Shown here one piece after another: positions 22,101 through 31,100 of a DNA stretch of 64,000 bases (within the stretch, counting starts at the first letter, position 1; every line of letters begins with the position of its first letter). The notes beneath the pieces were generated by a model. It saw nothing but the letters and a program-made list of their open reading frames with translations. It was not told the DNA's origin and did not search any database. Source of the stretch: Apostichopus japonicus (Eukaryota; Echinodermata; Holothuroidea; Aspidochirotida; Stichopodidae). Both the position numbers and the translations under genes were made by a program. The stretch is from NCBI RefSeq assembly GCF_037975245.1, contig NC_092573.1:24085265-24149264 (forward strand), written 5' to 3'.

Positions 22101-25100
22101 TTGCTAATATTATTTAATCGATAGATCAACTTTCAGGCCTGCAATGGAGGTAGAATGCATTGAATCGTGACACCATTGGCGGCAGGGCAGTTCAGAGTAT
22201 GGTATTGTTTTTTCTTGAGACTGTTACCATGTCTGAATAAATTTATCCCAGTGCCAAAGAAAACTTCATTGATATCACCCGGAAGGGATAGAATACTACA
22301 AGTGAGTACAGTCTTCATGAAGGATTACAACTACTTCAAATTTTGTTCCAACTGTACCTTTGGTCACCTAGGCAACTCACTTTTCCAAACGAGGGAAAAG
22401 ACAAAAAAGACAGGTGCTTCTTAGAGGTTGAAATAAAAGGCGAACAAGTATGAAACACTAAAATAGCATTCCCTTTAGGAAAGCAGGCATCCATTTATGC
22501 ACAAGTTTAGGTGTGGATTAAATGTGGAGATTAGGTTACTGGGATACCTTGAGGACTTTCTAGATCAGGGCCTTGTATATATCTATTCAATGAAATCTAT
22601 GAGAGGTCAACTCACCTTGATGTATGTTAGTAATTGTTTGTATCTGTTCATCATTTCTTCGTAATTGCCCTGTTTCAACGAAAACAATCAATTTAATGAT
22701 ATAGAAGATTAAAAACTACACAAATAAAGGCAGATAATATTAATTGTGTGACTGAGAATAAAATATGTTACGCCAAAATCCAGCAACCTCATACTAATGT
22801 TATTGATATCAAAGTATCGTTAAGAATTTTGTTTACTCTTCATGCAAAATATACAACTATGTCATGAATTATTCATGAGAAAATCCACATACATTCTTCT
22901 TTCCTACAACTACTTTCTTTACGAACTTGACAATACAAACACAGTCAATTACATTTAATGTGAGGTTCCGAGAATGACATTTTAACTTTATTGTTGATCA
23001 ACTAAAATAACTACACGAAGAGCATTTTCACAAATGAGTAATGACGCAAATGTACCGCAAAAGAAACACAGGTTAAATCCCTTTCCAAATAAGACAATAC
23101 ATGATTCTTCTTCTCAAAATTAAAATGACAATACAGTTTTAGATTTCATGGGTTAAAACTCAATATCATCAAGTCTAATACTGTTGCTACATTCCCAGGT
23201 GGGTTTTTTTTCCAGGATATTCAATGATGTCGTCAACAAGTTTGATACTTACTAATTTGAAATTAATTTTTATCATCTGTTTGAGGGCCTTGAATCCCCA
23301 GTCACCTTTCTCCATCTCCAATTCTAAAACCTGGATAGAGCAAAGACAGAAACAGTTTAAGCAAATCAGAATGCTAATACCAATGAACCTACTCTGTCAA
23401 ACTGATCAATAATGTGAATCGAAAGGCATCAACTTGTGACACATTGTATTGTTAGTGTTCATACTTAAATTATTTAATTGATAGAAGTATATATCTCTGA
23501 GAAGCTCAGCTTTTTTCCTTTTTCTTTTCTTTAGGTGCGGGGGGGGGGGGGGGTTTCTTTGTTTTCTTTTGCTGTTCATACCTTTCTTGTCGTTAGATAG
23601 TAATGCATAGGATTATAATGCACAGGTTCACTTTGTTTCATCCCATATTTCCTATTAAATGTCTCTTACAATCACCTCCATTAATGGCATTTGCAATCAG
23701 ACCAAAATAACCACTGTAGCCTTGACTGGCGTGGAAGAATTGTAAAAGTGGACTTAAGGTATAACAGCTGGCAATGGTATCCATGCACCAATTTGGGTCC
23801 TACTGTAGACGACTTAAGCCCTTGTGTAGAAAACATGTAGTTGCTTAAGGTTCAATTGAGGGCTAAGCAGTGACAACAGAAACATTGTCCTGGCAGCATG
23901 CTGGTTCCCCAAACCTTAACCGGTTTGTGAATTAACGAGCGACGTACTCACCTCATATAACCTATGCATTACCGTATTAACCTCGCTCTAGCATCTGGCA
24001 ATTTGTCTGTATGTAAGTGTGGCCATCTCCCTTCCGTAATTTCCAGGCCGCAATGGTGCGGCACCGGACGGAGAAGGGGGAGAGGATCGACCAAGGGGCG
24101 GAAACCCCGAGGATACAACCAAAAACATTCTCACCTGAAGAGGCCCTAGGTGGGCTGGTGTGGGTGACAGGTGGGTCCTGAGTGGGCCCGAAGTGGGTCC
24201 AGAGTGGGTCGTCGGTGGGTGTAGGCGGGACCCCACGACATCCCTCGAAAATTCCTGGGGGGAAAGGCCGACACATGGTCATATCTGCGTGGCCAGTTCC
24301 CCTAGTATCCGAGGAGGGTATCCGACGTGGTTGTATGGTTCCGTCCGCGAGGTCCCCCATAGTGGGGAGGCGGGTCGGGATGTTATATGAGGTGAGTACG
24401 TCGCTCGTTAATTCACAAACCGGTTAAGGTTTGGGGAATTCACAGCGCGTACTCCCTCACCTCATATAACCTATGCATTTGTGACACAGGAGCCCTGGCG
24501 GTGGGTCGAGGATCTCGCGGGCGGCGGACCTAGGGCCGCTCGGGCAAAATCCCCTTCCGTGGCAGGGGTGTTTGTGAGATAACAGGCGACAAAGGAAGAC
24601 GGGGTCTTCCAGGCCGCCGCCTTCATAATATCTTCCAGGGGAACCCCCCGGAACCACGCCCTGGACGTGGCGTGGCCTCGGACGTCGTGCGCCCGGACGG
24701 GTTCCCCAGGCTGGGTGTGGGCACGAATTAAGTCGGCCATCCACCGTGAAATGGTGTCCTTTGAGGCCGGGGTGTAGGGCGACCGCGGTAAAATGAAGAG
24801 CCTGTCCGAGGTACGTAGCTGTTTGGTCCTCTCTATGTACCACTTAAGGGCTCGGACAGGGCACCAGCGCTTGTCTTCCGCGATTGACGAGGCTTGTGAC
24901 AGACTCGGTAGGAAGATCTCGTTCGGGGTAAAGGTTACTGATTGGTTCTTTGGGAGGAAGTGAGGGTCAGGTAGTAATCTGACTCCTCCTGGTTCGAACC
25001 TCGTGAACCCCCGTTGGAGGGTGAGCGCGTGGAGACAGCTTCTGCGCCTGGCAGAGGCGGCCGCGATCAGAAACAGAGTTTTGTGTGTTAGTTTGTCCAA

Positions 25101-28100: not shown

Positions 28101-31100
28101 TGGCGTGAAAAGACTTTCCCAGTCTTCGTCGCCCACGTGGAAAGTGCGATGGGCTGATCGCTGGAAGGCTGTCCAGCGTTTCGCCTGTGCCACCGCCTCG
28201 AACCGCTCTCTACATTCCACATCCACCGGGATGGAGGCTCGAGGCTTTTGGGTGGCCGCGTTCAAAGTGAGTTTGGATGCCGGCCCCTCGTGGGCCCGCG
28301 CATCCACCCTTTCCTCGAAGCCGAGGACTCTGCGGAGTACTGCCGTCGCCTTCTCAAAGGCTTCCGCCGAAATTTCTGTACCCCGTAAGGGTTCTTCATC
28401 CTCCGCCTCGGAGTCTCCACTGAGGAGGCGGGCACTAGCTGCGATTGACAGCGCATCATCAGCTCTGGAGGAGACGTCGTCCCAGGGATCTGCCTGGGCC
28501 TCCTCAGGGGCGAGATCGTCCGTAACCGGTGCTGGCGGTGGCGCCGGTTGTGGTGGAATTGACGGAGCCCCTTGTTGTTCCGGGTCCTGTTGACTCGGCT
28601 TTTGTAGCAATTGTCCCAGGAGGTCTTTAACCTGGGAAAGGAGAGCCTGCCCCGGATCTGGGGATTGTCTCCTCTTTCGTTTCTTGGCCCTGTGTCGCCC
28701 AGAAGAATGTCCGCTCGAGGACGAGGGCGACGAGCCAGACCTCGACCTGCGTCGAGGTCGCCGGTGTCTTTCCCGGCTCCTACCGCGGCTACGGCTGTGG
28801 GTACGGCTTCTGCTTCGGCTTTGGCGCCGTTCCGTACTCTCCGGGGAGAACCCCGAGAAATCTCTCCGGTTGTGGTCCCACGACCCCGGAGTTGAAGTAA
28901 ATAAGTCCGCCACCGCTTGTCTTCGGGGGCTTCTGGACTCCACGTGGCCTGAAGTGGACGGACCCTCCTGGGGTCGCGGCCGTGGCTGAGCTGACGCCGC
29001 ACGGGAATTAGCTCCATCTCGTATGGATACCCGTTCCTGAGGAGGGTTTGAGCCATCTCGTATGGCGCCCTCCGTTCCCCCATGTTTAGGGCTTATGCCA
29101 TCTCTTATGGCCGCCTGGGGTTCCTTCGCCGGCGGCTTCTTTTTCCCCTGCTTTGAGGAAGCCGCCTTCTTTCTTTTTTCTGCGGCTTTATCCGCCAGCC
29201 AGGTACCGATCAAATCCCAGCGCTCCTGGGTCCAGTCCTGGCAAATGGAGCAGGTCTGCTTACTCCCGCATGGGCGACACTTTGGGCATAAATCATGCTT
29301 ATCCCATGCTTTGAACGGACGGAACTGCTTACAAGAACGGCAGTTTTCCATCCTTTTTTTTTTTTTTTTTTCCGAGAAATCTCCGAAAAATTTTTTTTTT
29401 TTTTTTCGAGAAATCTCCGAGACCTGAAGCTGTGAAAACTAAATCAAAAACAGTTACTTTACTGCAGAATGAAAACGTACACGGCTGCTGTACGTGAACA
29501 GCAAGAAATTCGTATCTAAACCAGTACGAAAAATAAACAAGGCAGTTACTTTACTGCAAAGGGAAAACGTACACGACTGCTGTACGAAAACAGTATGAAG
29601 AACTAAACAAAGCAGTTACTTAACTGCAAGTAAGCCCACGTACACGACTGCTGTACGTGGAAGTAAATAAACGCTAGGGGAACGCTACACTAAGGTGCGG
29701 GCCTAGCCACGCTACGTGAACCACGTTCACGAGGTAAACCAAAAAAACGTTCGAAAATCACGAAAGAAAAAACGTTTCAAAGACAAAAAGCAGTTCAAAC
29801 GTGCAGGACGTTGAATAGATGAAAAAGAATTACAAAAACAACGATAAACTTTAGACGAAGTAATTGAAATCTTAGGATTTAGTGAGAGCAATAAGAGAGC
29901 GATACTTGCGTAACAGCTGGCAATTACGGAAGGGAGATGGCCACACTTACATACAGACAAATTGCCAGATGCTAGAGCGAGGTTAATACGGTAATGCATA
30001 GGTTATATGAGGTGAGGGAGTACGCGCTGTGAATTTGGATATCCTTCTCATTAACACATAACTGGAGCAACAGGGTATTAATCTCAAAGTGAATTTCTGT
30101 AACATCAAGTATATTCCTGGTGTGCCAGTCCATTTATTGTTTCCTAAAACTGACATAATACACAAAAAAATTATTTTTTTGGGGGGGGGGGGTCATGATA
30201 GCAGTCTGCAATGAGCTGTATCTTGGTGTTGATAAAAAATTACAAAAGTCCAACCTTCTGAAAACTCTCTAAAGCTGCCCTAGGATCATCTTCCTTGAGA
30301 GCCTTTGAGTTGTAGTACTGGTTCTCCAAGTCTACATCTGGTTCTGAATTGCTGTCCTCTGAATACTCCTAAAATAGCAAAGAAATGAGAAACGCTTGTC
30401 AATTCATTTTAAAGTCCTCACAGTCACTATAATACCAGCTGAATATTGAAGCACAGAAAACTTAGCACAACATTACACTGTACTTGAGTTTCCTTTTAAT
30501 AGATCACATATTTTCAGTTTCAGGATAGAACATGAATAGAATATCTCGTTTACTAAAGTTTAGTAGGAAAAAAATGGATCAGGAGCAGGGTCTTAGCCAG
30601 GAATTTCAAATAGGGTGTCTCATCTGCTCAGGAGACTATCCATCTGGCGCCGGAGGCGCCTGCGCGAGCGCGAAGCGCGAAGCCTATAACGGGTGGGGTC
30701 CAGGGGCCCGCCTTAGGGCCCCTGGAAGCCCAGCCCCTATCAATGGTTTATTTGACACAATTGGGGTAAAAAGTATGCTTAGAAAGCTGTGAAAGCACCT
30801 TAGCCATCATGATTTTTTGGGGCATTCAAACATAAAAAAATGCTATAAAACACTAGGTGCAAAAGTGCACCATGAAAACAGCTTATAGTAATTGATATAT
30901 TACAAAGAATTTGAGCACCAAAAAGTTCAAACAATATCTTGTGGAATTATTTATGAACATTATGTACTATAAAATAGCCTACTGTGTATCTTGTAGAGTA
31001 TATGCCTTTATTCTGTTAATGTCATCGATATACAGGGATGAGCCTGGGGTAAAAAAAAATCACAGAACTTTGTGGGTGATACTATACTAACGCCGAGGGC

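Follow-up and report, generated by a model that had tools for sequence, protein, structure and literature searches.

The 64,000-nt stretch of Apostichopus japonicus DNA analyzed here (the window) carries on its minus strand a 6,129-bp DIRS1-like retrotransposon, inserted in an intron of COPS2. The element is almost certainly complete and recently active. In kind it is ordinary, since this genome has many such young DIRS1-like elements; the unusual part is the extent to which its copies shed light on integration. Across these copies and those of two sister families, the point of exchange with the target is nearly invariant, and the target base immediately before it depends on the last base of the element itself.

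Anatomy of the Element

The features of the element are listed below by window position, which is used throughout unless a contig is named. Abbreviations are ORF, open reading frame; RT, reverse transcriptase; YR, tyrosine recombinase; ITR, inverted terminal repeat; and ICR, internal complementary region.

23906..30034, minus strand: DIRS1-like element, judged complete, 6,129 bp (ends set by comparing other copies and by the join rule described below)
27435..29351, minus strand: gag-like ORF, 638 amino acids, with a Cys-rich start and an arginine/serine (RS)-rich stretch (open frame; assigned by position)
25364..27631, minus strand: RT/RNase H ORF, 755 amino acids, containing YLDD, with a possible methyltransferase C-terminal part (Pfam RVT_1, RT_RNaseH)
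24471..27110, minus strand: YR frame, 879 amino acids; the recombinase part is at about 24471-25535 and the remainder overlaps RT (Pfam Phage_int_SAM_1, Phage_integrase)
25364..27110, minus strand: RT/YR overlap, 1,747 nt (0 stops versus 10.5 expected)
29922..30016, minus strand: left ITR, identical part (repeat comparison)
23947..24041, minus strand: right ITR, identical part (repeat comparison)
30017..30034, minus strand: left tip outside the identical ITR, beginning ATTCACAG on the coding strand (copy comparison)
23906..23946, minus strand: right tip outside the identical ITR, ending GGGGA on the coding strand (copy comparison)
24382..24479, minus strand: ICR, complement of the joined tips (100% over 57 + 43 nt)

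The original prediction had placed the element at 23905-30035, which located it correctly but took in one flanking base too many at each end. Its description of a DIRS element with three open ORFs, the three enzymes, and 95-bp inverted repeats without difference was confirmed. Pfam matched RVT_1 (E 2.3e-21) and RT_RNaseH (E 5.5e-5; 23.7 bits, just below the cut-off of 24.8) in the RT/RNase H ORF and Phage_int_SAM_1 (E 1.7e-5, over the cut-off) in the 354 codons that close the YR frame. A Pfam search with the gag-like ORF gave no match. The ITRs extend to 100 nt if one mismatch is allowed, and the outer tips are unlike each other. When the two tips are joined, the ICR is their exact reverse complement. 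G+C content is 59-62% over 24-29 kb, versus 33-45% in the surroundings.

Several results count against parts of this assignment. Phage_integrase matched the same 354 codons with an E value of 0.009, below the cut-off, and predicting the YR fold from its sequence alone did not succeed (mean predicted local distance difference test score 36.9). For these two reasons, the catalytic residues HDVR...Y are putative, assigned by motif. A sequence search of the YR against the PDB gave nothing credible (best E 0.49). At the possible methyltransferase part the Pfam family Dam matched weakly (E 0.26; 11.4 bits versus a cut-off of 28.1), and two sister families gave no Dam match up to E 1.

The leader at 29357-29420 and 29439-29659 has, directly before the gag start, two repeats of T tracts that read as A-rich on the coding strand, together with repeated palindrome-like GTACACGACTGCTGTACG units. 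The RS/SR-rich stretch of the gag-like protein (27435-29351) resembles the RS domains of splicing factors.

Copy Number, Age, and Selection

The genome searched comprised 671.6 Mb in 35 contigs (contigs are labelled C and copies L). It contained at least 44 DNA matches to the RT ORF, 21 of which, besides the window copy, were near-whole at 99-100%. Twenty of these 21 were fetched for full comparison, and 21 copies were compared overall. A single substitution over 6,126-6,127 aligned bases separates the window copy from each of L009, L010, and L012. L011 has 3 substitutions, L015 has 4, L014 has 6, and all others have 9-21 apart from L017 (41, with a rearranged 5' end) and L028 (47). Each copy has 2-7 indels. 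A single substitution across 6.1 kb amounts to a divergence of about 1.6e-4, which would correspond to an age of roughly 8,000 to 80,000 years at an assumed 1e-9 to 1e-8 changes/site/year. The copies are separate insertions, because their flanks differ.

None of the three frames is interrupted in 19 of the 21 copies. One half of what the original prediction said would argue against recent activity, a lack of other copies with intact ORFs, therefore does not hold. Contrary evidence consists of frameshifts in the RT of L022 and the gag of L023; in addition, the RT start codon is missing in L028. In the single-frame coding regions the variable sites are 23 synonymous and 12 other, where 10.9 synonymous would be expected (p 2.8e-5; 20 copies, L017 left out, sites treated without modelling shared ancestry). 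The copies were made by working elements and show purifying selection.

ITR identity was dropped as a clock because nearly all copies share one ITR state: both ITRs equal those of the window copy in 18 of 21 copies and the ICR does so in all 21. The earlier caution that identical repeats prove little was therefore sound, and the youth proposed for the element is supported by its copies, not by its repeats.

Many repeat families maintain the identity of their repeats, and gene conversion could in principle keep old copies alike. That the copies are old in this way is very improbable: they are dispersed with unrelated flanks, their near identity spans the whole 6.1 kb, they fall into two sub-groups set apart by a 6-nt indel, and older copies at 86-97% identity remain unconverted alongside the young ones.

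A 25-nt pattern for the ICR junction, allowing up to 3 mismatches, matched 48 places, 43 of them exactly and four of these in one tandem array. Removal of the array and of one 3-mismatch place resembling a tip only left 43 ICR-bearing loci. The corresponding patterns for sister families (up to 3 mismatches) gave 251 and 49 matches in overlapping lists. The earlier remark that complete DIRS elements are far less common than LTR or LINE remnants thus needs qualifying, since in this genome they are numerous.

L071 and L072 represent two further DIRS families with near-identical copies, and one pattern accounts for the 251 matches. Five older ICR-bearing copies lie in a single orientation within about 110 kb at C2:11.89-12.00 Mb. 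L034 (C20:16197500-16203500; positions 681-3443) is a non-autonomous form, an internally deleted derivative of about 2.76 kb that has kept both ends and the ICR. In L017 (C8:22104806-22111736) the first ~225 bp are rearranged or replaced.

Element Ends and Target Sites

For the family of the window element (F1), 43 loci were examined, including the tip array described below. To count as readable, an end had to have a tip that aligned all the way out, and ends that did not were discarded; the readable set comprised 39 left and 40 right ends, both at 37 loci. The unreadable ends were the left end of L017 (rearranged), the right end of L024 (truncated), the left end of L051, and the right ends of L069 and L070 (altered tips). 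Two left ends, the partners of L065 and L035, were not fetched, and L033, a fragment neither of whose ends could be read, was excluded. All 39 left ends read ^ATTCAC and all 40 right ends read GGGGA^, where ^ is the join point. The target motif has A at -1 (33/39), A or T at +1 (35/40), T at +2 (36/40), T at +4 (26/40), and A at +5 (24/40).

Two insertions lie in tandem repeats, so that a neighboring unit serves as the empty site. At L010 the right-flank unit aligns with the joined flanks over 60 nt with no gap and 2 mismatches; on the left flank, the best-matching unit belongs to another variant and leaves a gap of 2 nt. At L022 the 47-bp units read GCTATTCC and the insertion reads GCTA^ATTCAC...GGGGA^TTCC (compared by eye). 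No base was gained or lost at either site, and neither shows a target-site duplication.

The same join rule is obeyed by two sister families, F2 (7 copies, two of which are one site through segmental duplication) and F3 (14 copies). The F3 ends dropped were the left end of L101 (tip not found) and the right end of L092 (one A missing, its ICR normal). In the three families together, 58 left and 59 right readable ends are joined at one fixed point, with one candidate exception, L103/L104 (see below).

In the published model a circular DNA recombines with the target through a junction of 3 bp that both have in common (PMC3266345), the circle having first been made double-stranded (PMC5633606). 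When target and circle were compared, differences at +1/+2 were found at 31 right ends and differences at -1 at 14 left ends, with none on the opposite side among readable ends. At the 30 sites with +1/+2 mismatches and both ends read, the mismatch was always at the right end (sign test versus random resolution, 1.9e-9).

Ordinary double-strand integration would involve a double-stranded circle and two strand exchanges over a short overlap, with the heteroduplex later removed by repair or replication. Besides being the published model, it accounts for precise, duplication-free insertion and for the triplet homology, and we regard it as a serious contender, if somewhat short of an even chance. 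Random resolution, however, predicts +1/+2 mismatches at either end, so that the one-sidedness would call for a strong and unexplained repair bias. Past the triplet, moreover, target and circle lack shared sequence, unlike the overlaps of known YRs.

The last base of the circle is A in F1 and F2 and T in F3. The target has T at -1 at 3 of 45 F1 and F2 sites versus 7 of 13 F3 sites (Fisher 5e-4); without three (AT)n sites the F3 count is 4 of 10 (Fisher 0.016). The -1 target base thus follows the last base of the element, and the target is therefore chosen partly by matching that base, which is what strand transfer would require. Among the DIRS families of this genome the last base of the junction is variously A, T, and also G.

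Alternatively, with no circle, the YR or host end joining might attach a linear cDNA with the fixed ends ATTCAC...GGGGA to a cut target. Both element ends are indeed constant, a 2020 paper cited in PMC9210276 reportedly describes linear single-stranded DIRS cDNA, and L024 (see below) indicates that repair-like right ends occur. Nevertheless, this route is unlikely, given that the -1 target base tracks the element's last base, that the two empty sites show neither loss nor gain, and that the tip array contains exact tip-to-tip junctions.

Two loci are contrary evidence, L024 on the lack of a target duplication and L103/L104 on an exceptionless join rule. L024 (C1:8049286-8056222) has an exact left end, a shortened right tip, and a 40-nt target duplication on both sides. 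At L103/L104 (F3, C22, about 23996708-24003251, in an (AT)n run), the left tip reads ATATAC and the locus's own ICR ATTTAC, while the right end continues ATTTA and then diverges. A join 3-5 nt rightward of the normal point would give such ends; alternatively, they may reflect a point mutation or slippage within the (AT)n run. L103/L104 is thus a candidate for occasional second-strand joins, and a rightward join of this kind resembles that of the second strand in double-strand integration.

Co-variation of the Tips and the ICR

Some older copies have an alternative right tip, AACCAGGTAAGG in place of AACCGGTTAAGG. From the right tips alone, nine loci were listed at which the ICR should carry the matching change. 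Four of the nine ICRs had already been read before the prediction (C20:16200417, C2:12003271, C12:5463954, and C17:20615227); at the five remaining loci the ICR type was predicted blind and was correct in 5 of 5. The contrary observation is a private ICR change without a tip counterpart in three copies (C20:17358147, C2:30048193, and C9:17458661). The tips and the ICR are copied from each other.

A Tandem Array of Joined Tips

At C20:19036177-19036641 (L031:2878-3342) there is a tandem array of five 93-bp units of joined element tips, without coding sequence. It matches the ICR at 100% in overlapping 94-96 nt stretches, closed on a 3-nt repeat. The array starts ATTCAC, ends GGGGA, contains four exact internal GGGGA^ATTCAC junctions, and sits at A^GTATA, the F1 target motif, integrated like an element. 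In unit 1 the center is inverted relative to the other units and joins the left tip (element 1-34) to the right end (6070-6131). As inverted tips imply, a single unit forms a strong single-stranded hairpin (-25.9 kcal/mol, z -7.9).

The exactness of the internal junctions suggests that the tips had already been joined as DNA before integration or while it took place, and further units may have come from later slippage. An alternative, possible though doubtful, is that the array reflects an error of assembly, or that slippage following a single tip-only insertion produced all of it. Short tandem repeats can expand and are prone to misassembly, and a search with a pattern for the inner joint (up to 3 mismatches) found this locus only. 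Slippage of one unit, on the other hand, would not by itself give exact GGGGA^ATTCAC junctions, the array is bounded exactly by element ends at the family target motif, and the center of unit 1 differs from the rest. Among the 100 junctions listed of the 251 in family 3, none lay within 150 bp of another, as judged by eye.

Proposed Route of Integration

One RNA would encode gag, RT/RNase H, and YR, and the RT would copy it into cDNA. The ICR would restore both tips and hold them adjacent, so that they join as GGGGA^ATTCAC, and the YR would exchange this tip junction with a short matching genomic triplet, leaving no target duplication. We infer the RNA and cDNA steps, the circle, the enzyme activity, and the inheritance, as a rule, of a single strand exchange.

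The fixed exchange point and the one-sided mismatches are hard to fit to ordinary two-strand exchange and resemble single-strand exchange in integrons. Integron integrases exchange one strand at one triplet point, bottom-strand AA^C (that is, G^TT), with resolution by replication (PMC4792948 and PMC3053210). By analogy, we tentatively suggest, as a possibility and not as the probable course, that a single-stranded cDNA circle with folded tips undergoes a one-strand exchange at a single point (N^NN) in a 3-nt microhomology, the junction then being resolved by host replication. Tip minicircles derived from the ICR could then be added in tandem to give the C20 array, and second-strand joins of the L103/L104 type would be the exception. 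If integration is of this integron type, no double-stranded circle is needed.

The Overlapping YR and RT Frames

The YR frame overlaps RT by 1,747 nt in the window element, 2,008 nt in F2, and 1,999 nt in F3. No stop occurs in the YR frame of any of these overlaps, versus 10.5, 14.7, and 10.3 expected, respectively, from shuffling of synonymous RT codons (in each case none of 2000 shuffles reached zero); the unused third frame has stops as expected under the shuffles. The YR frame is therefore held open by selection. Selection on the amino acids of the overlapping YR frame was considered and is unsupported: among copies there are 3 synonymous and 12 other changes versus 4.7 and 9.8 expected, and between families the YR-frame identity exceeds that of synonymous shuffles (z 3.4-3.7), yet the third frame does likewise (z 1.7-4.1). 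Only the openness of the overlapping frame is clearly selected. Long ORF overlaps are recorded for half of the 28 annotated DIRS1-like elements in PMC3266345.

Host Gene and Surroundings of the Element

The host gene is represented in the window by the following stretches.

30255..30368, minus strand: COPS2/CSN2 (COP9 signalosome subunit 2) exon 2 (E 9.4e-17 to CSN2 in the PDB)
about 23253..23330, minus strand: exon 3-like sequence, probably COPS2 exon 3
about 34852..34902, minus strand: exon 1-like sequence, probably COPS2 exon 1

Exon 2 and the exon 3-like sequence flank the element, and all three share the minus strand, which places the element in COPS2 intron 2 in the sense orientation, as originally predicted. 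It begins about 220 bp past exon 2. The element-free COPS2 site is predicted to read GGATATCCAA^ACCAGC on the coding strand.

Between the exon 1-like sequence and exon 2 there is an RT fragment (33623-34039, minus strand; RVT_1 2.4e-6, below the cut-off) that is probably a remnant of a long interspersed nuclear element. Sperm-tail PG-rich (SHIPPO) repeats are encoded at 36904-37392 on the plus strand (Pfam 4.9e-14). Tandem arrays are found at 58590-58804 and 6401-6602, with units of 29/58 bp and 15/61 bp. Elsewhere in the genome, the mitochondrial COX1 reads canonically when AAA is translated as Asn (genetic code table 9, compared with table 5 only), and ND4L- and COX2-like sequence comes after it; this code and gene order point to an echinoderm, the code being one that flatworm mitochondria also use. 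Contig C29 (G000:C29) carries a further group of COX1 fragments, which may be nuclear or duplicated mitochondrial DNA.

Relation to Known Systems

In its described features the element resembles the DIRS1-like superfamily of PMC3266345 (Dictyostelium DIRS-1 and 28 annotated elements, e.g. the hemichordate SkoDIRS1/2). It shares with that superfamily gag, RT/RNase H, and an overlapping YR frame, ITRs whose tips diverge, the right tip being the longer, an ICR, a short circle junction, and the lack of a target duplication; its size of 6.1 kb falls within the 4.0-6.3 kb of Table 3 of that paper. It differs in its junction, GGGGA^ATTCAC with target A^WT, and in a methyltransferase part that Pfam did not confirm. 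PAT-like, Ngaro, and Viper elements have the same RT/RNase H and tyrosine recombinase. According to the same paper, PAT-like elements have split direct repeats, whereas the window element has ITRs and an ICR (repeat comparison of its ends revealed these and no split direct repeats), and Ngaro and Viper are without a methyltransferase domain and usually without ORF overlap. Integron attC x attI recombination also uses a tyrosine recombinase and a one-point triplet exchange with microhomology, as in the integron papers cited above, the single-strand exchange being our inference for the element. It differs in involving bacterial gene cassettes and no reverse transcription; the likeness is mechanistic, and no kinship is claimed. 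In the passages of PMC6681497 consulted, integron integrases appear in a tree legend only.

Inspection by eye of Table 3 of PMC3266345, with two elements with a 2-nt junction set aside, showed unequal termini in 8 of 26 elements with a 3-nt junction. In seven of these the differing base is at the end, in position 2 or 3, and in one, AcasDIRS1, it is at the start, in position 1. Because all 8 fit the join rule, the rule may be general for the DIRS1-like superfamily.

A near-fixed join point across three families, the tip array, and a YR frame held open by selection are new here. Among the literature titles and abstract openings consulted, none described a fixed exchange point or tip arrays; we do not claim that these are absent from print.

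The integration of DIRS elements has been little tested, and a genome with many near-identical copies makes each insertion a finished recombination experiment. The exchange point, the dependence on the last base, and the tip array yield predictions that separate double-strand from single-strand exchange.

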